Shown piece after piece: positions 14,841 to 29,208 of a stretch of 43,952 nt of DNA. Each line of letters begins with the position of its first letter. Positions within the stretch are counted from its first letter, which is position 1. The DNA is from Pyrinomonadaceae bacterium. Lineage in GTDB: Bacteria > Acidobacteriota > Blastocatellia > Pyrinomonadales > Pyrinomonadaceae. The position numbers and the translations under genes were made by a program. The DNA is taken from positions 1 to 43,952 of the forward strand of contig JAICGZ010000012.1 in the NCBI GenBank assembly GCA_025922875.1. The letters run 5' to 3'. The notes under the pieces were generated by a model. The model saw only the letters and a program-made list of their open reading frames with translations. It was not told where the DNA came from and searched no databases.

Positions 14841-14860
14841 ACAAGTTTACTTCGTCTAAT

Positions 14861-14964
14861 GGGCGTCTCCCTGGAGTGCGGCGGCCTGGCTCCGCTTTGG
14901 CCATCGTTGATGCTCGATCGAGACCAAAAGCGGCGCCACGCCGCCGCACTCCAGGGAGGCGTCC
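14861..14964. repeat. GC-rich palindromic repeat element (copy 1)
   Basis: A 104-bp element whose left arm (14861-14900, containing CTGGAGTGCGGCGGCCTGG) and right arm (14924-14964, containing GCCGCCGCACTCCAGGGAG) are largely inverted copies. It sits between two convergent genes, the CxxC protein and the 65-residue protein. A second copy at 21202-21298 lies inside the coding sequence of the ArsA-like ATPase. It has no transposase and looks like a MITE- or REP-type element. Confidence 0.8.
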
Positions 14965-14978
14965 AATTAATAATTCCG

Positions 14979-18974: not shown

Positions 18975-19835
18975 ATGAGTCGAGAAGCAGAACAAACTTC
19001 TGTTGAGCCTGTGCCTGAAGGCAAATACGTTTATTGCATCATCGAGACCTCGGAACCGCGTTCATTCGGTCCGATGGGTATAGGTGGACGTGGCGACGAT
19101 GTTTACACTGTGCAGCACAAAGGTCTCGCCGCTGTGGTTTCGAACACGCCTTTGGTCGTTTACGATCCAACCCGTGAAAACGTGTTTGCGCACGAGCAGG
19201 TGAACGAAACAGTGATGCGCGAGTTCACCGTTTTGCCGATGGCGTTTGGCGCGTTGTTTCGTACCGAGGAAGATATAGTTGAACTGATTCGCGGCACTTA
19301 CGACGCGCTGCGCGACGTGCTTGCGAAGATGGAAGGCAAAGTGGAATTCGGATTGAAGGTGAATTGGGATCGCGACAAGGTGACTGCTGAACTGGAAGAG
19401 AAAGACGACGAGATACGTCACCTCAAAGAGCAAATCACTTCGCGCACAACCGGTTCAACCTATTTTGCGCGCATGCAACTCGGACGTTTGATCGAGACCG
19501 CAATGACCGATCAGGCTGACGCGTATATTCGCGAAGTCTATTCGCAATTACGCGACACGGCTGTTGCTTCACGCGCCAACAAACCGATCGGCGATCGCAT
19601 GATCATGAACGCCGCTTTCCTTATTGAACGCGATCGAGAAGCGGAGTTTGATCAGAAGGTCAAGGAGATTGCTTCGAAGTACGAAGGCAAGTTGTCGTTC
19701 AAGTACACAGGTCCGTGGCCCCCATACAATTTCGTTCACATTCGTCTCAAGCTCGAGCGTCCCGAGCTCGGCGAGGCCGCACCACTGGAGCGAGGCGAGC
19801 GCCGCGAAGGCGCCGCTGAACCAGTGCGCCAGTAA
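18975..19835 (+). CDS. Gas vesicle protein GvpF/GvpL (copy 1)
   Basis: 286 residues. The N-terminal domain begins EGKYVYCIIETSEP and includes GLAAVVSNTPL; a coiled-coil (ELEEKDDEIRHLKEQI) follows near residues 140-160, and the family hallmark GPWPPYNFVHI is near residue 255. GvpF/L proteins are accessory factors that bind GvpA and help nucleate vesicle assembly. This is the longest of three copies and has an extra C-terminal tail after the hallmark (residues about 262-286) that is Glu/Arg-rich. It is the first gene of the cluster, 4 bp ahead of gvpG. Confidence 0.93.
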   Translation: MSREAEQTSVEPVPEGKYVYCIIETSEPRSFGPMGIGGRGDDVYTVQHKGLAAVVSNTPLVVYDPTRENVFAHEQVNETVMREFTVLPMAFGALFRTEEDIVELIRGTYDALRDVLAKMEGKVEFGLKVNWDRDKVTAELEEKDDEIRHLKEQITSRTTGSTYFARMQLGRLIETAMTDQADAYIREVYSQLRDTAVASRANKPIGDRMIMNAAFLIERDREAEFDQKVKEIASKYEGKLSFKYTGPWPPYNFVHIRLKLERPELGEAAPLERGERREGAAEPVRQ

Positions 19836-19839
19836 ACAA

Positions 19840-20145
19840 ATGTTTTTGATTGACGACTTACTTCTGGCGCCGGTCAGCGGCTTCAAGTTCATCCTCGGCC
19901 AGATTCAAAAAATGGCCGATCAGGAGCTGAACGACGATACCGTGATCAAAGAGCAACTGCTCGAATTGCAGATGCGCTACGAGTTGGAGGAAATCTCCGA
20001 CGAAGAATTTCGTGAACGCGAAGCGGAACTGTTCGCGCGTCTGCGCGCGATCAAGATGCGGCAGCTTGATCTGATGCACCAGGCGGTACACACCGCTGAC
20101 TCGTCGAGTTTTGTGATCGAAGTCGGCGGAGACGAGCGTGAGTAG
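19840..20145 (+). CDS. gvpG: Gas vesicle protein GvpG
   Basis: 101 residues from ATG 19840. The frame extends upstream inside the preceding gene, but the GvpG family begins MFLIDDLLLAPVSGF, as here. Residues 1-25 form a hydrophobic/amphipathic helix (LAPVSGFKFILGQI) and the rest is a charged helix with EEISDEEFREREAELFARL, which is the family pattern. GvpG is an accessory assembly protein that interacts with GvpF/L. The gene starts 4 bp after the first gvpF/L stop, consistent with one transcript. It ends 13 bp before a palindromic repeat that separates it from the ATPase gene. Confidence 0.88.
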   Translation: MFLIDDLLLAPVSGFKFILGQIQKMADQELNDDTVIKEQLLELQMRYELEEISDEEFREREAELFARLRAIKMRQLDLMHQAVHTADSSSFVIEVGGDERE

Positions 20146-20158
20146 ATAAACAAATTTT

Positions 20159-20222
20159 CCCGCAAAGACGCAAAGAGGCAAAGATACCAAAGTTTCTCTT
20201 TGCCTCTTTGCGCCTTTGCGGG
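20159..20222. repeat. 'CGCAAAGACGCAAAG' hairpin before the ATPase gene
   Basis: Arms 20159-20184 and 20197-20222 are 26 bases each and match at 25 of 26 positions when inverted; the loop is 12 bases. The right arm ends 4 bases before the ATPase ATG (20227), and its terminal GCGGGAG is the only Shine-Dalgarno-like sequence available, so the hairpin would cover the ribosome binding site when folded. A matching copy lies at the other end of the gene. Confidence 0.85.
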
Positions 20223-20226
20223 AGAA

Positions 20227-22269
20227 ATGTCTCAGGTTAAGTTGATCTCAGGGGAACCTTCCACAGCACGTTATCTTTTCTTCGGCGGTAAGGGTGGGGT
20301 CGGAAAGACTACCGCGGCATCAGCAACCGCGCTTTATCTCCTCAACAAACTAAAACGAAACGAATCCGTCCTCCTGTTCTCTACAGATCCGGCTCACTCT
20401 CTATCTGATAGTCTCGACATAAAAATCGGTAACCGGCTCGTCGAAGTGAAACAACTTCGCGGTGCGCGCTTGGTTGCATACGAGATGGACGCGAGTCTTG
20501 CGCTCGAGCGGTTTCGTGCGGCACACGGCAAAGTACTCGCGGAGATCGCAGAGCGGGGGACATTGCTCGATGAACAGGACATCAACGAGTTGTTGAGTCT
20601 TTCGCTGCCGGGACTGGATGAAGTGATGTCGCTGTTTGAATTGAGCGAGCTGGACCGCGCGGGGCAGTACGCTCACATCGTCGTCGATACGGCGCCGTCG
20701 GGCCATACTTCGCGTTTACTGCGTCTGCCCGAAGTGTTCGATCGCATGGTGAAAGCGCTCGATCTGATGGGCGACAAACATCGCTATATGGTGGCCCACT
20801 TTGCGCGCCGTAAACTAGTTGCCGACGAGGTCGACCTGTTCCTGAAGGATCTCAGCCAGAGAATAGAATCCGTGCGCCAGTTGCTTCACGACAAGGGTCA
20901 GACCAGGTTTGCGCTCGTGACCATTCCGGAAGCGATGGGTGTTCGGGAGACGGAGAGATATTTCCAACTGTTGCGCGAAGAGGGCGTGCCCGTCAGGGAT
21001 TTGATCGTCAATCGCGTAGAACAGGAACATGACGATTGCGAATACTGTCGTGCGCGTGTTGCGAGCCAGCGGCCGTGGATCAAACAGATCGGCAAATCGT
21101 TTGGCGAGCTTCAGCTTCACTACGTGCCGTTGATGGCGAAGGAAGTGCGTGGGCTCGATGATTTAAGGAAAATCGGAAAGTTAATCTGGAGCGAAGGTGG
21201 TGGGCGTCTCCTTGGAGTGCGGCGGCTTGGCGCCGCTTTCACCCCGAACCCGCCCGTTCCAGACCAACGGGGCGCCCGGCCGCCGCACTCCAAGGAGGTT
21301 CGTAATCTTTTTGCTTCCCGCAAGATCGTGATCTTTGGAGGCAAAGGCGGTGTTGGCAAGACGACCGCAGCGGCGGCGTTCGCACTTGCCCTCGCGAAGG
21401 CGAATCGAAAACAGAAGTTGTTGATCTTCTCAACCGATCCCGCCCACTCGTTGTCAGACAGTTTTGGTGAAGAGATTGGTGAGTCAAAAACCGGCGTCGC
21501 CGGTAACGAGAACCTCGACGCAATGGAGATTGATCCGGGAAAGTGGTTCGAGGAACTGAAGCAACGCTATCGATCCTGGACTGACGAACTGTTCGCGTCC
21601 TTATCTGGCGGGTCGCGTATGGAGATCAAGTTTGATAAGGAAGCGATGCGCGAGCTTGTCGAATTGACTCCGCCGGGCATCGATGAAATCGCAGCACTGG
21701 GGACGATCAGCGATCTCCTGGATCTCGAACGCTACCAGACGTTGATTCTTGATACAGCGCCCACTGGTCACCTGATCCGTTTTCTGGAGTTGCCGCAAGT
21801 AGCCCTTTCATGGATAAGAACGTTCATGAAGTTGCTGTTAAAGTATCAAAACGTAATGCGCGCGAATCGGGTCGCGGAAGAGCTCGTGGCTTTGTCGAAA
21901 AGTATTAAGAAGGTAATCGCGCTACTGACGGACGCGGAGCGTTGCGAGTTTGTGGGCGTGGCTATTCCGGAGCGTATGAGTCTCGAGGAGACGATGGATC
22001 TGGCGAAGTCGCTGGAGAAGTTGAAAGTACCGTTGAGTAAACTGCTGATCAATGGAGTCGCGCCTGATGATGCTTGTAGTTTTTGCAGGTTGAGACGAAA
22101 GACGCAGGACGAGGTGATTGCCGATTTCGAGAAACGGTTTCGGCGCCGTTCGGTAGAAATCTTTGTAGCGCCGCAACAGCCGCACGAGATTAAAGGCGCG
22201 GAGGATCTCATCACGCATTTTGAGGCCTGGCAGAAGTTCTCCCGCAAAGCCGCAAAGGAGCAAAGTTAA
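20227..22269 (+). CDS. Two-domain ArsA/Get3-like ATPase in the gas vesicle cluster
   Basis: 680 residues: two complete ArsA/Get3-type ATPase domains in tandem. Domain 1 (about 14-320) has the deviant Walker A GGKGGVGKTT (residues 20-29), switch I STDPAHSLSDS, switch II DTAPSGHTSRLLRLP and a CEYCRAR pair. Domain 2 (about 365-675) repeats GGKGGVGKTT (371-380), STDPAHSLSDS, DTAPTGHLIRFLELP and CSFCRLRRKTQ. Both sites look catalytically intact. ArsA works with arsenite pumps, Get3 carries hydrophobic tail-anchored proteins; no ars gene is nearby, so a chaperone-like role for a hydrophobic Gvp protein is the better guess, but this is inference. The linker, residues about 326-357, is encoded by a palindromic repeat. 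The C-terminus (SRKAAKEQS) runs into another repeat. Confidence 0.88.
   Translation: MSQVKLISGEPSTARYLFFGGKGGVGKTTAASATALYLLNKLKRNESVLLFSTDPAHSLSDSLDIKIGNRLVEVKQLRGARLVAYEMDASLALERFRAAHGKVLAEIAERGTLLDEQDINELLSLSLPGLDEVMSLFELSELDRAGQYAHIVVDTAPSGHTSRLLRLPEVFDRMVKALDLMGDKHRYMVAHFARRKLVADEVDLFLKDLSQRIESVRQLLHDKGQTRFALVTIPEAMGVRETERYFQLLREEGVPVRDLIVNRVEQEHDDCEYCRARVASQRPWIKQIGKSFGELQLHYVPLMAKEVRGLDDLRKIGKLIWSEGGGRLLGVRRLGAAFTPNPPVPDQRGARPPHSKEVRNLFASRKIVIFGGKGGVGKTTAAAAFALALAKANRKQKLLIFSTDPAHSLSDSFGEEIGESKTGVAGNENLDAMEIDPGKWFEELKQRYRSWTDELFASLSGGSRMEIKFDKEAMRELVELTPPGIDEIAALGTISDLLDLERYQTLILDTAPTGHLIRFLELPQVALSWIRTFMKLLLKYQNVMRANRVAEELVALSKSIKKVIALLTDAERCEFVGVAIPERMSLEETMDLAKSLEKLKVPLSKLLINGVAPDDACSFCRLRRKTQDEVIADFEKRFRRRSVEIFVAPQQPHEIKGAEDLITHFEAWQKFSRKAAKEQS
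21202..21298. repeat. GC-rich palindromic repeat element (copy 2), within the ATPase gene
   Basis: The arms at 21202-21243 (with TTGGAGTGCGGCGGCTTGG) and 21269-21298 (with GCCGCCGCACTCCAAGGAGG) match copy 1 at 14861-14964. Here the element is read through in frame and encodes the Arg/Pro/Gly-rich linker between the two ATPase domains (RRLGAAFTPNPPVPDQRGAR and flanks). No stop arises in the frame used. Confidence 0.85.
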
Positions 22270-22300
22270 TTCTTCCTTTGCTTCTTTGCGTCTTTGCGGG
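22241..22300. repeat. 'CGCAAAGACGCAAAG' hairpin after the ATPase gene
   Basis: Arms 22241-22265 and 22276-22300 are inverted copies with two mismatches around a 10-base loop. The left arm encodes the last residues of the ATPase; the right arm ends 6 bases before the ATG of the second gvpF/L gene. It matches 20159-20222, so the ATPase gene is bracketed by the two copies. Confidence 0.85.
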
Positions 22301-22306
22301 AAAAAT

Positions 22307-23134
22307 ATGATTCGAATGAGCGCTCCTGCTTTCTACGTCTACTGCATCGCCGAAAGTGCCGCAGCCGCACAGTTGAGCGCAGACTCTTTGCCCGCCGCGA
22401 TCGAAGACGATTCCAAACTCGAGTGGGTTTCAGTCAATGCTCTTGCGGCACTCGTCAGTCGTGTGCCGCGTGAATCGTATAGTGAGGCGAGTTTAGCCGA
22501 ACATTTGACTGACGCGACGTGGACGGCCATTCGCGCGATGCGTCATGAGACGGTGGTGGAGTACGTCGCTAAGCGGACGAGTGTCGTTCCCCTGCGGTTC
22601 GGGACCATTTATCTCGAGCGTCATGGAATCGAGCAGATGCTGGCTGACAGATCGAGAGAGCTCGAAGAGATCATCGAGCATCTGCGTGGTCGTGAAGAGT
22701 GGGGTGTTAATGTTTGGTGTGACCGCGCGGTGTTGCTGTCGAGCATCACGTCCGTTAGTCCGGTGTTGCGCGATCTCGTCGAGCGCGCCGCGCAGGCTCC
22801 GCCGGGCCAGTCGTACTTGATGCAGAAAAAGATCGAAACGCTGAAGGTTGACGAAGCACGCGCGGCAGTGAACCGGATCGTTGATCAGATCGAGGAGAAG
22901 CTGAAAGAGCAGAGCGATGACTCGAGACGCTTGCGCATACTGAAGGTCGAAACCACAGAGCATGGCGAACTGAAAGCGAAGTTTGCGTTTTTAGTAAAGA
23001 GGGCTGAGTTTGAAGAGTTTCGTGACGCTGCGGAGCGACTGGCCCGGGAAAACCAGAATGCCGGTGTTCGCCTTGAATTAACCGGTCCGTGGCCGGTGTA
23101 TAACTTTGTACAGGATTATCATGTCGGATTTTGA
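22307..23134 (+). CDS. Gas vesicle protein GvpF/GvpL (copy 2)
   Basis: 275 residues from ATG 22307 (MIRMSAPAF); a second ATG at 22316 is an alternative. Upstream frame is repeat sequence. N-terminal AFYVYCIAESAAAA matches the start of GvpF/L, VVPLRFGTIYLERHGI the middle segment, QSYLMQKKIETLKVDEA a helical segment, and TGPWPVYNFVQ is the C-terminal hallmark. Accessory assembly factor for gas vesicles. It overlaps the next gvpA/J-type gene by 14 bp, so translation is coupled. The three copies differ greatly in sequence, suggesting separate roles as with GvpF and GvpL elsewhere. Confidence 0.92.
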   Translation: MIRMSAPAFYVYCIAESAAAAQLSADSLPAAIEDDSKLEWVSVNALAALVSRVPRESYSEASLAEHLTDATWTAIRAMRHETVVEYVAKRTSVVPLRFGTIYLERHGIEQMLADRSRELEEIIEHLRGREEWGVNVWCDRAVLLSSITSVSPVLRDLVERAAQAPPGQSYLMQKKIETLKVDEARAAVNRIVDQIEEKLKEQSDDSRRLRILKVETTEHGELKAKFAFLVKRAEFEEFRDAAERLARENQNAGVRLELTGPWPVYNFVQDYHVGF

Positions 23135-23339
23135 TCAAATACTTGTCAGCGAAGAGTGGGAGGAGACTGATCTCTCGCTGCTCGAAACACTCGACCACGT
23201 GCTCAATCGCGGGCTGGTCATCGCCGGTGAGATCACGATCTCTGTTGCCGATATCGATCTCATCTTTCTCGGCGTGAACGTTTTGGTCAGTTCAGTGGAG
23301 ACCGCGCACGAAGTCTTACGCAAGCGGCCAACAGAATGA
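23121..23339 (+). CDS. Gas vesicle GvpA/J/S-family protein (short)
   Basis: 72 residues from ATG 23121; five upstream codons in frame overlap the previous gene and add nothing. The GvpA-fold core is LLETLDHVLNRGLVIAGEI followed by ISVADIDLIFLGVNVLVSSV, i.e. helix-strand-strand-helix as in GvpA. It differs from GvpA proper in the core and lacks the [11 protein letters not shown] motif, so it is more likely GvpJ or GvpS, minor tip or nucleation components. It overlaps gvpF/L copy 2 by 14 bp and gvpF/L copy 3 by 4 bp, and is thus certainly in the operon. Confidence 0.88.
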   Translation: MSDFDQILVSEEWEETDLSLLETLDHVLNRGLVIAGEITISVADIDLIFLGVNVLVSSVETAHEVLRKRPTE

Positions 23340-24052
23340 AGCTATACGTCTATTGCCTCGTCGAAGATGTCGAAGCGCTGAGTGGACCAGTAGGCGGGAT
23401 TTCCGGCGCTCCGGTACGATTAGAGAAAATCGAAGATCTCGGCATCCTGGTTAGCGACTTCAATGACGATTCAGTTCCGGTGACGCATGAAAACGCGATG
23501 GATCACGCAGCCGTAGTGCGAAGCGTTCTGGATCGCACGACGCCTCTGCCGTTTCGGTTTGGAACGCTCGTGACCGAGCAGCAACTCAGGAGTTACATCA
23601 CTGCGCGAAAGCCCGCGCTGGAAAGCAATCTATCGATGGTTCGTGGTTGCGTAGAAATGAGCGTGAAGATCATTTGGGAAGTTTCAAAGGAAAAAGAAGA
23701 AGAGGTCCAGGAATCAGATCATGGACTTGGGACGACCTTTCTCGCCGAGAAACGACGAGAGATCATGGGCAGCGAACTCAAGGCGGCGCAGGCTAAAGAG
23801 ATATCTACCTGGCTGCACAAAAGCGTTAGCGGCTTAACGCGAGGTGAAAAAGTAAGTCTCCAGTCTTCGGAGAAACTGTTTTTAAGCGCGGCCCATCTCG
23901 TTCCACGTGCTAACCTTAAGCAATATCGAGAGCAAACGGCCCAAGTCCGCGAGGAGAGGCCCGATCTGCACTTTCTTTTCAGTGGTCCCTGGCCGCCGTA
24001 TAGTTTTGCGAACATTGAGCTTGAGTTTAAAACACAGTTCGGAGTAAGCTGA
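23336..24052 (+). CDS. Gas vesicle protein GvpF/GvpL (copy 3)
   Basis: 238 residues, the shortest copy. Begins MKLYVYCLVEDVEALSG, with LPFRFGTLV in the middle, TTFLAEKRREIMGSE as the helical segment and SGPWPPYSFANIELEF at the end. Its ATG overlaps the preceding stop (ATGA), and its own stop overlaps the gvpK start by one base. Accessory assembly role as for the other copies. The close packing of gvpA/J-type, gvpF/L and gvpK points to stoichiometric co-translation. Confidence 0.92.
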   Translation: MKLYVYCLVEDVEALSGPVGGISGAPVRLEKIEDLGILVSDFNDDSVPVTHENAMDHAAVVRSVLDRTTPLPFRFGTLVTEQQLRSYITARKPALESNLSMVRGCVEMSVKIIWEVSKEKEEEVQESDHGLGTTFLAEKRREIMGSELKAAQAKEISTWLHKSVSGLTRGEKVSLQSSEKLFLSAAHLVPRANLKQYREQTAQVREERPDLHFLFSGPWPPYSFANIELEFKTQFGVS

Positions 24053-24417
24053 TGGAGCTTTCCCCCGAAAATCCCCTTTCGGCTGAGCCGGAGATTGAAA
24101 CTTCGCATGCGGAAGAGTTTGTGGAGCAACTTCGTTGCGTCACCGATGCCCTGCCGTCGCGAATAAATATTGATGCGCAGAGCGTCGAGCAAGGTCTGGC
24201 TAAGCTGGTGCTAACTTTAATCGAGTTCATCCGGCGTCTGCTTGAAAAGCAGGCGGTTCGACGCATGGAAGGCGGGGATCTCTCACCTGAACAAATCGAA
24301 GAATTGGGATTGGCGCTCATGAGATTGGAGGCGAAACTCCAGGATCTGAAAACACAGTTTGGACTGGAGGATGAAGACCTCAATCTCGATCTTGGTCCAA
24401 TCGGGCGCCTGATTTAG
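24052..24417 (+). CDS. gvpK: Gas vesicle protein GvpK
   Basis: 121 residues. The family pattern is clear: RINIDAQSVEQGLAKLVLTL, then EFIRRLLEKQAVRRMEGG, and LSPEQIEELGLALMRLE followed by an amphipathic helix ending in LDLGPIGRLI. GvpK is an accessory protein needed for normal vesicle formation in other organisms. It starts on the last base of gvpF/L copy 3. A 90-bp gap follows. Confidence 0.92.
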   Translation: MELSPENPLSAEPEIETSHAEEFVEQLRCVTDALPSRINIDAQSVEQGLAKLVLTLIEFIRRLLEKQAVRRMEGGDLSPEQIEELGLALMRLEAKLQDLKTQFGLEDEDLNLDLGPIGRLI

Positions 24418-24506: not shown

Positions 24507-24905
24507 GTGTCCAGCGAGCGGTCTACCCTTATAACGGCCCGTCCCCCGGGTCTGGTTGATGTTCTCGACCGTATTCTTGATAAAGGACTGGTTATTGCGG
24601 GCGACATCAAAGTGTCGCTGGCCAACGTAGAACTACTCACGTTACAGATCCGTCTCCTCGTTTGTTCAATTGATAAAGCAGAGCAGATCGGTTTGAACTG
24701 GTGGCGCTATGACACGAACCTAACGACACGCGCCGAGCGTGCCGAAGCCGAGAATCTGGAGTTACGCGAACGGCTCGCGGAACTCGAAATGGAGATCCGA
24801 AAACTTGCAGTCGCCGGAGCGGCCGCCACTGTCCGTGAACAAAATACAGTTGCCACCAGTCGCAGGCGAGTGCGTAAAGCTAAAGCCAAGGAGCGCATTA
24901 CATAA
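24507..24905 (+). CDS. gvpJ: GvpJ-like protein with long C-terminal coiled coil
   Basis: 132 residues from GTG 24507, which follows GGAGGG at normal spacing. Residues 13-58 carry the GvpA fold (GLVDVLDRILDKGLVIAGDI, then VSLANVELLTLQIRLLVCSI). After AEQIGLNWWRYD comes a tail of 60 residues: a predicted coiled coil (AERAEAENLELRERLAELEM) ending in a very basic stretch (SRRRVRKAKAKERIT). This length and the NWW motif resemble GvpJ, a minor component thought to seed or cap the vesicle. The gap to gvpA is 99 bp. Confidence 0.85.
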   Translation: MSSERSTLITARPPGLVDVLDRILDKGLVIAGDIKVSLANVELLTLQIRLLVCSIDKAEQIGLNWWRYDTNLTTRAERAEAENLELRERLAELEMEIRKLAVAGAAATVREQNTVATSRRRVRKAKAKERIT

Positions 24906-25004: not shown

Positions 25005-25286
25005 ATGGCTGTCGAAAGAGCACCAGGCGGTACTAGTTTAATTGACGTTCTCGATCGCGTGCTCGATAAGGGCATCGTAATCGATGCGTGGGTTAGAATT
25101 TCTCTGGTGGGCATTGACTTGATCACGATCGAAGCTCGTGTAGTAGTTGCTTCAATCGACACCTACTTGAAGTACGCTGAAGCAGTAGGATTGACCCCGG
25201 CAGTTTCACGACCAGTTCTTACGCCCGGAGCGGAGCCAGTCGAAACCGAGCGACGCCGTGTGACAGTCGAAGTCGAAAAGAAATGA
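25005..25286 (+). CDS. gvpA: Major gas vesicle structural protein GvpA
   Basis: 93 residues. The core is almost the textbook Gvp[41 protein letters not shown], then [14 protein letters not shown]. GvpA packs into ribs that form the gas-filled protein shell. The C-terminus extends about 28 residues beyond the usual end, with Pro/Glu/Arg-rich sequence. AAGGAA lies 11 bases before the ATG. It is last in the cluster, unlike many clusters where gvpA comes first; a dedicated strong promoter would be expected for this abundant protein, but I cannot assign one in the 99-bp gap. Confidence 0.95.
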
Positions 25287-25357: not shown

Positions 25358-25363
25358 TTGGAA

Positions 25364-27568
25364 ATGAGTTTTATGGGAGAAGTTCCGGCAGAATTAGCAG
25401 TTCGAACGCAGTCCTCCCTTTCGGAATCGGAGCGGGTTAGCCCATACCTGCGTCAGTATGACATCTTTGTCGAAACCACGACGCAGATGCTTGCCACACC
25501 CAAGCTGAATGAGCGCCTGCAACTGGCCCTCGAAGGGATCGCAAGTATCTTCGGTCATCGACAAGCCGCCATTGCGATCATTAACGAACGAGATGCAGAG
25601 CTGCGAATTCGTGCTGCTGTTGGTTTTGAGGACGAATCGAGCCCTCGCGTGGAAATGCCTTTAGACTCCAGCGCCAACTGCGTGCGTGTTATCCATGATG
25701 GTCATCCACTCTGGATCTCGATGCAGGAGGATGAAGCCTCACGCAGTCTGTTCGACAAAATGCGCTGGCAGCAGGACGTACTCGCCCTGCCGTTGTTTGG
25801 CATCTCGGAAATTTCGACGAAATCGCGGCGCGGCGATACAGATGGGAGTTCCCGCTTTCCCGCTCATTATTGGACCTTCGATCAGGGCTCACGACTGGGC
25901 GTGCTCTACATCGGCGCCTACGAGAACAGTATCGATCCTGTTTCTTTGAATCTTCTCAAGCGATTTGCTGACAAGGTTGGCATTATCGCTTCTCTCGCAA
26001 TTCATCAGGAACGACTCGTTAACACGGTCACGAAGTTGCAACGAGAGCGGCAATGGATTGAGTCGATCATGAAGTCTGTTGCGGATCCGATCGTTCTCAC
26101 CGATCTCGACAACGAAATCCTGCTGCAAAACCGTCGCGCGGAAGAACTGTTTAGCGGTTCCGCCAATGCGGGCGAAGGAAAGCGCCGCGCGCTGAAGATG
26201 AACGATCTGCTTTTCTCCGCTTATCTTTCGAGCGCCACAGTGTCGTCGTCGGAAGTTATTCAGAGAGACATCACTCTTGTTGATCCGATCGAAGGTTCCG
26301 ATATCCACTTCGAAGTGATCTCGACTCCCGCCGCAAATGCACGCGGCGAGCCGCTCGGACTAGTGTCGATCTTTCGTGATGTAACTGATCTGCGTGAAGC
26401 GAATGAGGAGTTAGCGCGTAACTTCGTCAAGTTGCAGGAAGCTGAGGCTGAGTCGCGTCGCGAACGCGATCGACTGGACCTCATTATCGAGAACGTGGGC
26501 CATCCGATCGTCGTCTGCGACTCAGCCGGCAACTTCATTTTATTCAATCGGCGCGCGGAGCTGTTGTTTCAGGAGAATGCTTCGTTCAGATCAGTGGCCG
26601 CTGCCGCCGTTCGCACCAATGCCGTCAAACTCACCTCGTTTATCTCAACGCTTGCTTCGGCGTCTGAAACGGGCAGGCAAGCTGAGATTGAATTGATCGA
26701 TCCCGAAGACGGTAGATCGTTACCGATGGAGATAACGGCGCGCGAAGTTCTGGATCCGACGGGGCAGGTTACGGCGGTTGTATCCATCCTTCACGATCTG
26801 ACTGAGATTCGTGAACTCGAACGCCGGCGTGTCGAACAACAGTTGTTCGAATCGGAGAAACTGGCTGCCGTTGGGCGCCTTGCGGCATCGATCGCTCATG
26901 AGGTCAACAATCCTCTCGAAGCGATCAAAAACGCGCTTTACTTGATGCAGACGAGTATTGACGTCGATAGCAAGAACACTCGCTTTCTGGAGATCGCCAG
27001 AAAGGAGACTGAAAGAGTTTCACATATCATCCGGCAGATGCTTGGTTTTGCACGCCGGCCTGGTGAAGTTGATTGGGTGGATGTAAATCAACTGCTGGAA
27101 GAGACGCTCGTCCTGATGGAAAAGAAGATGCGCCAACTGCGCATCCGGATCACGAAATCATTCGACGATTCGTTGCCGAAGGTAAGGGCGCGCGCCGATC
27201 AGTTGCGCCAGGTCTTTCTGAATCTAATTATTAACGCGCAGCAGGCGATTGAAGGCGAAGGCGAAATCGTGATCTCCACGTCTCGTTATGAACAAGCCTT
27301 GCAACCGTCGATTCTTGTCCAACTCAGCGATAGCGGCGTTGGTATCGCCGAGGACGATATTAATCGCATCTTCGATCCGTTTTTTTCGACTGGCAAGAAG
27401 GGAACTGGCCTTGGATTGTGGGTAACACAGGACATCGTGAGACAGCACGGCGGCCGCATCGAAGTTAGTAGCGAGTTAGGCCGAGGCACCGTATTCAGCA
27501 TCGTGCTTCAGGTTGAGTCTCCCGTTCTCGAAGATCAGGAAAGCGAATCTAAGTTGTCGGCAAAATGA
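25364..27568 (+). CDS. GAF-PAS-PAS sensor histidine kinase
   Basis: 734 residues from ATG 25364; ATG 25373 is an alternative. Predicted cytoplasmic, without membrane helices. A GAF domain spans about residues 40-220 (LNERLQLALEGIASIFGHRQ), then two PAS domains (about 230-350 and 370-490; SIMKSVADPIVLTDLDNEIL and IIENVGHPIVVCDSAGNF). HisKA has the phospho-acceptor His in ASIAHEVNNPLEAIKNAL, and the HATPase domain shows the N box (NLIINAQQAI), G1 (DSGVGI), the F box (FDPFFSTG) and G2 (GTGLGLWV). This is the NtrB-like HPK4 group. It follows gvpA by 77 bp and overlaps the hybrid protein gene by 4 bp. The signal is unknown. Confidence 0.9.
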   Translation: MSFMGEVPAELAVRTQSSLSESERVSPYLRQYDIFVETTTQMLATPKLNERLQLALEGIASIFGHRQAAIAIINERDAELRIRAAVGFEDESSPRVEMPLDSSANCVRVIHDGHPLWISMQEDEASRSLFDKMRWQQDVLALPLFGISEISTKSRRGDTDGSSRFPAHYWTFDQGSRLGVLYIGAYENSIDPVSLNLLKRFADKVGIIASLAIHQERLVNTVTKLQRERQWIESIMKSVADPIVLTDLDNEILLQNRRAEELFSGSANAGEGKRRALKMNDLLFSAYLSSATVSSSEVIQRDITLVDPIEGSDIHFEVISTPAANARGEPLGLVSIFRDVTDLREANEELARNFVKLQEAEAESRRERDRLDLIIENVGHPIVVCDSAGNFILFNRRAELLFQENASFRSVAAAAVRTNAVKLTSFISTLASASETGRQAEIELIDPEDGRSLPMEITAREVLDPTGQVTAVVSILHDLTEIRELERRRVEQQLFESEKLAAVGRLAASIAHEVNNPLEAIKNALYLMQTSIDVDSKNTRFLEIARKETERVSHIIRQMLGFARRPGEVDWVDVNQLLEETLVLMEKKMRQLRIRITKSFDDSLPKVRARADQLRQVFLNLIINAQQAIEGEGEIVISTSRYEQALQPSILVQLSDSGVGIAEDDINRIFDPFFSTGKKGTGLGLWVTQDIVRQHGGRIEVSSELGRGTVFSIVLQVESPVLEDQESESKLSAK

Positions 27569-29208
27569 GCCAGCCAATCAATCATTCCGGAAACGGTTCA
27601 CCTCAGGACGTTTTATCCAATGAGGCGCGGCTACTTGTCGTGGACGACGAAGAGAGCCTGCGCATCACTACCGCCGCGATCTTCGAGAACGAGGGTTATC
27701 TCGTCGATACAGCGTCGAGTGGCGACGAGGCGATCGCGCTGTTGAACGACGCTGATTACGATCTGGTGCTTACTGATTTGCACATGGAAGGAGGCGATGG
27801 TCTTTCCGTGTTGAACCAGATCCGGCAGCAGAGGCCGCTGACGATTTCAGTGGTGCTGACAGGATTTGCTTCAGTTGAATCCGCGATCGCCGCCTTGCAG
27901 GAAGGTGCTTACGACTATCTCGTCAAGCCCTGCGATATCGAGAGCATGAAGCACACGATTCGCAGAGGCGTCGAGCACCGGCGACTCATGCTGGCTGAAC
28001 AGAAAGCCCGCATGGATTTGCAGCAGTTGAATCTTGATCTGGAGAAGAGAATTGAGGAACGGACCGCCGAGTTGAAGCGGCTCAATGCGGAACTGGCAGA
28101 AGCTAATCGCGCGAAAGATGTTTTCCTCGCCACGCTCTCACACGAATTGCGAACTCCTTTAACGCCTGTTGTCGGTTGGATCAAATTGCTGCGCAGTGGA
28201 ACTCTCGATGAAAAAAGTGTGGCGCAGGCCCTCGACGCAATCGAGCGCAACGCCTGGTTGCAATCACGACTGATCGACGATCTACTTGACACTTCACGAA
28301 TCGCAACGGGAAAACTGCATTTCGAACCCAAGCCAACCGATTTCAACATAGTAGTGAAGGCTGCTGTCGATACTGTTCGTAGTTCTGCCGCTGCGCGCAA
28401 CATCGATTTATCGCTGTCGTTGTGGCCTTCAAGTTTGGTTGTGATGGGCGAACCACTGCGTCTTCAGCAGATTGCCTGGAACCTTGTCTCCAATGCGATC
28501 AAGTTTACCGATCCGGGTGGCAAGGTGAGGGTGACGACGGGGTTGAACGATTCCCATGCGTATTTGGAAGTTGTCGATACCGGCGTCGGGATCGAATCAG
28601 AATTTCTCCCGCACGTCTTCGATCGGTTCCGGCAGGCGGATGGTTCGACTTCGAGGCGTCACGGTGGTTTGGGACTCGGACTCGCTATCGCCGACGCACT
28701 CGCGAAGATGCACGGCGGCAAACTCGAAGCGCAGTCTGACGGCGGCGGGCAGGGATCGCGTTTTACCTTCCTGATCGGACTGGCGCCGAGCGAGAAATCT
28801 GCACCGGAAATGGTGGATCAAAAAGCTCACTCGCTGGCGGGGCTGGATGTTTTGATCGTGGAAGACTCGACAGACACACTCGAGTTGCTCAGCGTGATCT
28901 TCAGTCGTGAGGGCGCGAACGTAACCGCGGCGTCGTCTGCGGCGGAAGCGCTCCAAAATGCGGTCATGAAGCGTCCGAACATCATCGTATCTGATATCGG
29001 CATGCCGGATACCGACGGTTATCGACTGCTCGAGCAACTACGCCGGCTTCCCGGATTGACTAAGGTGCCGGCCATCGCCGTTTCAGGTTATGCGAGTGAG
29101 GAGGATCGTGAGCGCGCGCTGGCGGTTGGTTACCTGGCGTTAGTCCCCAAGCCGATCGACGTGGACGTCCTTTTCAACCTCATTCAGGAACTCAAAACCC
29201 CGCTATGA
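27565..29208 (+). CDS. Hybrid response regulator/histidine kinase (REC-HisKA-HATPase-REC)
   Basis: 547 residues. The N-terminal receiver (LLVVDDEESLRITT, phospho-Asp in LVLTDLHMEGGDG, Lys in YLVKPCDIES) covers about 20-140. A coiled coil leads to HisKA (FLATLSHELRTPLTPVVGWI) and the HATPase domain (NLVSNAIKFT, DTGVGI, GLGLGLAI). The C-terminal receiver starts VLIVEDSTDTLELL with phospho-Asp in IIVSDIGMPDTDG and Lys in LVPKPIDV. The ATG overlaps the stop of the upstream kinase (ATGA), so the pair are co-translated and likely form a phosphorelay. There is no DNA-binding output domain. Confidence 0.92.
   Translation: MSQPINHSGNGSPQDVLSNEARLLVVDDEESLRITTAAIFENEGYLVDTASSGDEAIALLNDADYDLVLTDLHMEGGDGLSVLNQIRQQRPLTISVVLTGFASVESAIAALQEGAYDYLVKPCDIESMKHTIRRGVEHRRLMLAEQKARMDLQQLNLDLEKRIEERTAELKRLNAELAEANRAKDVFLATLSHELRTPLTPVVGWIKLLRSGTLDEKSVAQALDAIERNAWLQSRLIDDLLDTSRIATGKLHFEPKPTDFNIVVKAAVDTVRSSAAARNIDLSLSLWPSSLVVMGEPLRLQQIAWNLVSNAIKFTDPGGKVRVTTGLNDSHAYLEVVDTGVGIESEFLPHVFDRFRQADGSTSRRHGGLGLGLAIADALAKMHGGKLEAQSDGGGQGSRFTFLIGLAPSEKSAPEMVDQKAHSLAGLDVLIVEDSTDTLELLSVIFSREGANVTAASSAAEALQNAVMKRPNIIVSDIGMPDTDGYRLLEQLRRLPGLTKVPAIAVSGYASEEDRERALAVGYLALVPKPIDVDVLFNLIQELKTPL

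Follow-up and report, generated by a model that had tools for sequence, protein, structure and literature searches.

Get3 is a homodimer of single domains, and the tandem Get3-like protein ArsA1 of Chlamydomonas has a tail-anchored client. Castillo and Saier (2010, PMC2963123) reported two-domain ArsA homologues in the gas vesicle (gvp) gene clusters of four phyla, Acidobacteria among them. The acidobacterial cluster is listed there with L/F, J, K and M and no gvpN, the pump cysteines are not conserved in the gvp-linked homologues, and the ATPase and GvpN are proposed to energise distinct functions in gas vesicle biogenesis. Here we analyze a gene of this kind, located at 20227–22269 on the forward strand of a 43,952-nucleotide stretch (the window) of contig JAICGZ010000012.1 from a Pyrinomonadaceae bacterium of the Acidobacteriota, the phylum to which its named kin in the ATPase and gvpF trees also point. 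We propose, at roughly even confidence, that its product is a Get3-like, ATP-driven chaperone dedicated to gas vesicles, which would act beside GvpF and GvpG on hydrophobic GvpA-family subunits; both the client and the mechanism are what we infer.

Keeping hydrophobic GvpA soluble and feeding it to the growing shell is an open problem, with GvpN regarded as the ATPase involved. GvpN resembles the window ATPase in being an ATPase of gas vesicle clusters, but it is an AAA+ ATPase of another family. The window locus is most like clusters 4 and 6 of Castillo and Saier, where tandem ATPases (averaging 637 and 645 residues) lie beside gvp genes. That study differs in drawing on few genomes from its four phyla, and the parts of it covered contain neither a monophyletic GvpN-less lineage and its spread nor a gvpF-gvpG-ATPase unit. 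As far as our searches show, the additions beyond 2010 are the cross-phylum GvpN-less lineage, the placement of the ATPase on the Get3 side with a duplication of its own, and this three-gene unit. Literature searches, outside which lie most subscription papers and all bioRxiv preprints, returned no paper for gas vesicles with Get3, only PMC11445434 for gas vesicles with tail-anchored proteins, and only PMC2963123 for gas vesicles with Acidobacteria and gvpN; further searches brought up no additional title on this topic. An earlier reading of the window's letters (the original prediction) knew of no function described for this ATPase. We found no functional experiment in the literature, but its association with gvp genes and an energising role had already been proposed in 2010.

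A tandem ATPase on the Get3 side of its family

The reading frame has exact boundaries, with ATG at 20227 and the stop at 22269, and encodes 680 residues; an alternative TTG start 27 nt upstream would give 689. Its parts are as follows.

20227..22269, + strand: tandem Get3/ArsA-type ATPase gene, 680 residues (profile matches, motifs, tree, model)
20248..21198, + strand: N half (range from our own hidden Markov model; falls in the N-half group of the tree)
21199..21297, + strand: linker between the halves, encoded by one copy of a genomic palindrome (families D2/I5; another copy at 14860-14965)
21298..22242, + strand: C half (range from our own hidden Markov model; falls in the C-half group of the tree)

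The Pfam ArsA_ATPase profile matches in two stretches (E 3e-139), and NCBIfam GET3_arsA_TRC40 (TIGR00345) scores 452 bits, exceeding its cut-off of 135; the arsenite-pump equivalog TIGR04291 reaches 221 bits, far below its cut-off of 650. Both halves carry GGKGGVGKTT, STDPAHSLSDS, DTAP-GH and CxxC, the last as CEYC at residues 271-274 and CSFC at 617-620. Coordinates, profiles and motifs thus confirm the original prediction of a 680-residue two-domain ATPase between gvpG and gvpF/L. The AlphaFold2 model has a mean predicted local distance difference test score (pLDDT) of 82.9 and a predicted template modelling score of 0.84. Within the genus, purifying selection acts on the two halves alike, with ratios of non-synonymous to synonymous substitution rates (dN/dS) of 0.04-0.13 where dS is finite, rough values as dS exceeds 1 throughout.

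The protein is a member of the Get3/TRC40/ArsA family in which two Get3-like halves are joined covalently into a pseudo-dimer. It shares with archaeal Get3 the PG-DE motif, CxxC, the nucleotide motifs and the longer segment after switch II, and differs from Get3/TRC40 in that its halves are fused and unlike each other. Its best sequence matches in the PDB are Chlamydomonas reinhardtii ArsA1 (5zme, 8.5e-73; also solved as 5zmf), likewise a tandem Get3-like protein but without CxxC in the aligned region, and archaeal Get3 (3ug6, 4.9e-52); Escherichia coli ArsA (1f48, 5.3e-31) lies behind both. The fold and the tandem layout are common to the window ATPase and the ArsA proteins of E. coli and L. 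ferriphilum. Pump ArsA differs from it in the pump cysteines, which are present in pump-side relatives and absent here, and in having a separate duplication in the tree.

These differences were followed through an alignment and tree of 86 halves that we selected from 172. The 20 halves termed pump-side comprise 12 of ArsA type, four haloarchaeal halves and four from L140 and L143, and only L176 among them was compared with a solved ArsA. Where the pump has cysteines C113 and C422, the aligned residue is Gly in all 57 gvp-linked halves and all five archaeal Get3-like proteins, Cys in all 20 pump-side halves, and Ala or Ser in the four other single-domain copies. In the window ATPase the pump ligands Cys113, Cys172 and Cys422 correspond to Gly, Ala and Gly, so that all three are absent. 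CxxC is found in 39 of the 44 tandem non-cyanobacterial gvp-linked halves (10/10, 9/10, 11/12 and 9/12), in none of the 20 pump-side halves and in none of the four other single-domain copies. It is also present in 5/5 archaeal Get3-like proteins, a partly circular count since these were chosen with CxxC already known; in the alignment it is likewise seen in archaeal Get3 of known structure (3ug6 and 3zq6). The segment following DTAP-GH spans 65-81 residues in tandem gvp halves (63 in one), 78-81 in Get3-like proteins and 47-61 in pump-side halves.

In the tree (quick method, midpoint root), the gvp-linked halves form a single group of 57, with support of 99 in the Shimodaira–Hasegawa-like approximate likelihood ratio test (SH-aLRT), and the pump-side halves a group of 20 (100). 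The N halves and the C halves of the tandem proteins form groups of 25 each (98 and 99), standing apart from the pump-side group, which argues that the gas vesicle tandem is a duplication of its own, separate from pump-type ArsA. The two single-domain open reading frames (ORFs) of locus L165 are labelled N for C in the tree and alignment; both have CxxC and Gly, so the counts hold, and the mislabelling inflates the figures for changes in the T2N and T2C groups. Single-domain gvp-linked relatives exist, for instance in Chlorobiaceae records, and such copies, still within gvp clusters (Chlorobiaceae and Nitrospinota records among them), lie close to the tandem proteins in the tree. The original prediction had suggested a Get3-like protein, and had named clear clustering with pump ArsA and a linked arsB as evidence to the contrary; the separate grouping, the absent pump cysteines and CxxC all favor a Get3-like over a pump-like ATPase.

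Linkage of the ATPase to gvpF and gvpG

The ATPase gene stands in a compact run of gvp genes, all on the forward strand.

18975..19835, + strand: gvpF/L copy 1, a type II GvpF, immediately 5' of gvpG (PF06386, 265 bits; type II clade in the tree)
19855..20145, + strand: gvpG, start approximate (PF05120, 78 bits, cut-off 30.6)
22304..23134, + strand: gvpF/L copy 2 (PF06386, 186 bits, cut-off 23.6)
23121..23339, + strand: short GvpA-family gene (PF00741, 52.6 bits)
23336..24052, + strand: gvpF/L copy 3 (PF06386, 157 bits)
24052..24417, + strand: gvpK (PF05121, 116 bits)
24507..24905, + strand: GvpA-family gene with a C-terminal extension (PF00741, 61.7 bits)
25005..25286, + strand: gvpA, probable shell protein (PF00741, 63 bits; PRK09371, 118 bits against a cut-off of 100)
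25358..27568, + strand: PAS-domain histidine kinase beside the cluster (profile match)

The order is thus gvpF/L, gvpG, ATPase, gvpF/L, short GvpA-family gene, gvpF/L, gvpK, GvpA-family gene, gvpA. With three GvpF/L, one GvpK and three GvpA-family genes, the run holds gvpA, F/L, G and K together, the combination by which we recognise a gas vesicle cluster. The assembly is a draft of 542 contigs, 93.5% complete and 4.9% contaminated. The same cluster is present in at least three of the 12 same-genus genomes searched (G1082, G1085 and G1088), which makes contamination by a stray contig unlikely. In same-genus G197 our profiles find no gvp gene between the flanking genes and no GvpF/L in the genome.

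Within the cluster, the ATPase is tied to gvpF and gvpG in particular. Of 52 gvp-linked ATPase genes, 30 have gvpG as the next gvp gene 5' within 1 kb, as do 29 of the 39 that have at least two domain matches. Two draft genomes, in which misassembly is possible, have the unit detached from the rest: in G067 the cluster is split over two contigs, with gvpF-gvpG-ATPase well inside one and the remaining gvp genes well inside the other, and in G254 it lies on three contigs with gvpF, gvpG and the ATPase again together, apart from the other gvp genes. On the short contig of L083 (G376), no gvpG was detected between gvpF and the ATPase. GvpA2 of Bacillus megaterium is bound first by GvpF and next by GvpG, both of which are proposed as its chaperones (PMC11445434). 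Taken with this proposal, the gene linkage points to a place for the ATPase in the chaperone arm of assembly.

The wider distribution supports a dedication to gas vesicles. A scan of genome contigs covered the best 80 of 561 relatives, and gvp genes accompany 35 of these. In 21 of these 35 loci gvpN is in the same stretch and in four more it is elsewhere in the genome; eight are type II loci (see below) without gvpN, and in two (L107 and L122) none was seen. The ATPase and GvpN therefore usually co-occur. The linkage with gvp genes is conserved across many phyla; a lack of such conservation would have counted against the original prediction. The gvp contigs of L094 and L095 (G266 and G290) each carry one whole and one partial ATPase copy, and these genomes have two gvpN genes each.

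A lineage of gas vesicle clusters without GvpN

No GvpN exceeds the cut-off in the window cluster or elsewhere in the draft genome, in keeping with the gvpN absence noted originally: the best match in the whole assembly is 39.7 bits against a cut-off of 266.8, similarly weak matches occur in 12 of 14 control genomes, and TIGR02640 (GvpN) is not among the profile matches of the ATPase. Absence from one draft genome is no proof; absence from all 18 genomes with the same cluster type is stronger.

This type was delimited by GvpF/L scores. GvpF/L is matched in 67 of 396 Acidobacteriota genomes, 23 of which also have GvpA; the best score splits the 67, with 13 genomes reaching at least 249 bits and the next 233. 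This gap recurs in Myxococcota, where 14 of 282 genomes have GvpF/L, and in Planctomycetota (23 of 392). We term the high-scoring group type II, which with a limit set after the Acidobacteriota results were known comprises 18 genomes (13 + 2 + 3, the window's included); G586 and G693 are the only type II genomes of Myxococcota and Planctomycetota not reached through the ATPase. In a tree of the gvpF copies beside gvpG, type II is one clade of 20 of the 48 rows (bootstrap/SH-aLRT 98/94), requiring one change in 99% of bootstrap trees. The tree warns of long branches among rows outside type II (L110, L160, L122 and L092), and the L083 copy, from the contig without a detected gvpG, was assigned by position. 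A GvpK tree was set aside as lineage evidence: the protein is too short, and type II needs four changes in it. Members span Acidobacteriota, Myxococcota, Planctomycetota and Rokubacteria, and this phylogeny places the window in a single lineage of gvp clusters that crosses phyla.

GvpN (searched at E up to 1e-25) is found in 0/18 type II genomes, and outside type II in 9/10 gvpA-bearing Acidobacteriota and in 25/32 Myxococcota and Planctomycetota, one of the 25 just below the cut-off. A linked ATPase is present in 15/18 type II genomes. The ATPase led to five further genomes of type II (G396 and G398-G401), whose species may overlap with the 18; they also yield no GvpN. G000, G397, G402 and G403 either entered the set by way of the ATPase or represent the window itself. 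Once they and G407 are removed, GvpN is found in 0/14 type II genomes against 34/41 others (p 3e-8). A linked ATPase then occurs in 11/14 type II genomes against 15/34 GvpN-bearing clusters (p 0.054; 0.008 for the enrichment with all 18 genomes). These p values overstate the evidence and are not proper probabilities, as the genomes are related.

Proposed role and alternatives

For a chaperone beside GvpF and GvpG, a plausible cycle would begin with ATP binding, which would close the two halves and form a hydrophobic surface. This surface may hold a GvpA-family subunit that GvpF/GvpG hand over or bind jointly with the ATPase, and hydrolysis would release the subunit where the shell is growing. 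Within type II the ATPase would be the only dedicated assembly ATPase seen; in GvpN-bearing clusters it and GvpN may act at different steps.

Several observations weigh against this proposal. CxxC is missing in all six cyanobacterial halves, in 3/7 single-domain gvp-linked copies and in 4/24 type II halves. The longer segment after DTAP-GH is also present in all four other, non-gvp copies and is thus no proof of Get3 function. A whole-protein Foldseek search puts pump ArsA first, with Get3 chains from rank 13, some of them solved with transmembrane helices; fold alone therefore does not tell the two apart. The Anabaena sp. PCC 7120 gene set gvpABC, NJKFG and VW, which has no such ATPase gene, yields irregular vesicles in E. 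coli (PMC7204071). Lastly, the ATPase was not found (E up to 1e-30) in three type II genomes, G293, G317 and G325, where gvpF/L directly follows gvpG; G317 and G325 retain the gvpA pair, F/L, G and K with neither ATPase nor GvpN. Between G293 and G317, dN/dS is 0.20 for gvpF copy 1, 0.33-0.39 for the other gvpF/L, 0.22 for gvpG, 0.09 for gvpK and 0.25 for the short GvpA-family gene. These gvp genes thus remain under selection with both ATPases missing, provided that the loss predates the split of the two genomes. The GvpF tree separates G325 from G293 and G317, implying two ATPase changes, but the approximately unbiased test does not reject a single clade (p 0.19); at least one loss is therefore shown, not two, and independent losses were not retained as a claim. 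The G293 locus (L084) also lacks the gvpA pair, and retains three gvpF/L, gvpG, gvpK and the short GvpA-family gene.

A bolder form of the chaperone proposal, which we put forward tentatively and think rather doubtful, is that shell assembly throughout the cross-phylum lineage needs no GvpN and draws its power from a fused Get3-like shuttle, which would hand on hydrophobic GvpA-family subunits jointly with GvpF and GvpG. This would be a soluble, membrane-free use of the chaperone machinery of tail-anchored proteins. A natural lineage without GvpN, and mostly with a Get3-type ATPase, offers a direct test of whether GvpN is dispensable in principle. It also bears on whether Get3-type chaperones serve clients beyond membrane proteins, and type II clusters may supply new parts for acoustic reporter gene sets.

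The original prediction also suggested that the ATPase may replace GvpN. As an account of type II, this would mean that it took over the elongation step powered elsewhere by GvpN, a step for which GvpN is required in known systems, bicones or tiny vesicles forming without it (PMC11223475, PMC9501494, PMC11445434). The reciprocal counts in type II, with GvpN in none of the 18 genomes and the linked ATPase in 15, fit such a takeover, as do both comparisons on the reduced set. Replacement nevertheless fails as a general rule: in the 21 of 35 loci where both genes lie together, and in the four further genomes with gvpN elsewhere, the ATPase would have a job beside GvpN, and three of the 18 type II genomes have neither, two of them with gvpA, F/L, G and K retained. 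GvpN is also missing in 8/42 genomes outside type II, three of which (G170, G804 and G407) have the ATPase on the GvpF/L contig, and the listed cluster of Streptomyces coelicolor is without gvpN (PMC9501494). Inside type II, replacement is possible, though we regard it as unlikely.

Positioning or partitioning of vesicles in the manner of MinD/ParA relatives, without handling of GvpA, seems decidedly improbable: the proteins share the deviant Walker A superclass and ParA and MinD profiles match in part around the second P-loop, but these matches are restricted to the P-loop region, and the Get3/ArsA family matches run along both halves. An arsenite-pump ATPase lying in the cluster by chance is scarcely credible, despite the shared fold and tandem layout, the lead of ArsA in Foldseek and the Pfam family name Anion-transporting ATPase, given the three absent metal-binding cysteines (a loss also reported for clusters 4 and 6 in PMC2963123), the separate tree group, the TIGR04291 score and the cross-phylum gvp linkage. 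No linked arsB, arsD or acr3 was recognised by eye in the ORF lists, a reading made without a profile search for them; named features of the plasmid matches, among the 60 of 2,091 records listed, are arsA or GET3/ArsA-family ATPases.

Linker, repeats and neighboring genes

The linker (residues ~325-356, pLDDT <50) is the longest low-confidence part of the model. It is encoded in frame by one copy of an interspersed palindromic repeat found at 14860-14965 and 21201-21297, which has matches on at least 13 further contigs in this assembly. The halves lie in separate reading frames in same-genus G1088 (L190, 2254-4298) and in the planctomycete locus L165 (9986-11961), either by natural split or by sequencing error. 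The repeat-encoded linker and the separate halves would fit a protein whose halves pair by themselves. Short repeats of the type CGCAAAGACGCAAAGA at 20155-20226 and 22237-22304 flank the ATPase gene and encode its last residues.

In L100, L101, L102 and L153, single-domain ArsA-like ATPases whose switch motifs are altered occur as adjacent pairs; no gvp gene was found in these stretches, and their hosts are genomes of family f15 and a Bathyarchaeota record. Among the 67 Acidobacteriota genomes with GvpF/L, 44 have no GvpA-family match (E up to 1e-5). Of these, 41 belong to f15 (e.g. L098 and L099), most with a single GvpF/L, and another use of GvpF/L is possible there.

The gaps of type II clusters were read by eye, without a profile search, and those of L086 and L165 were covered only in part. 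They show kinase-like genes or none, and another ATPase standing in for GvpN was rejected on this reading. No kinase was seen beside the clusters of L072 and L133. In L119, L126, L082 and L128 a kinase-like gene, by eye a PAS histidine kinase, lies between the gvpA pair and gvpF, and a receiver protein is readable in the kinase gap of L119 and L128. In the window, the region 3' of the cluster (25358-29208) contains the PAS histidine kinase followed by a receiver-kinase hybrid, the latter judged by eye.

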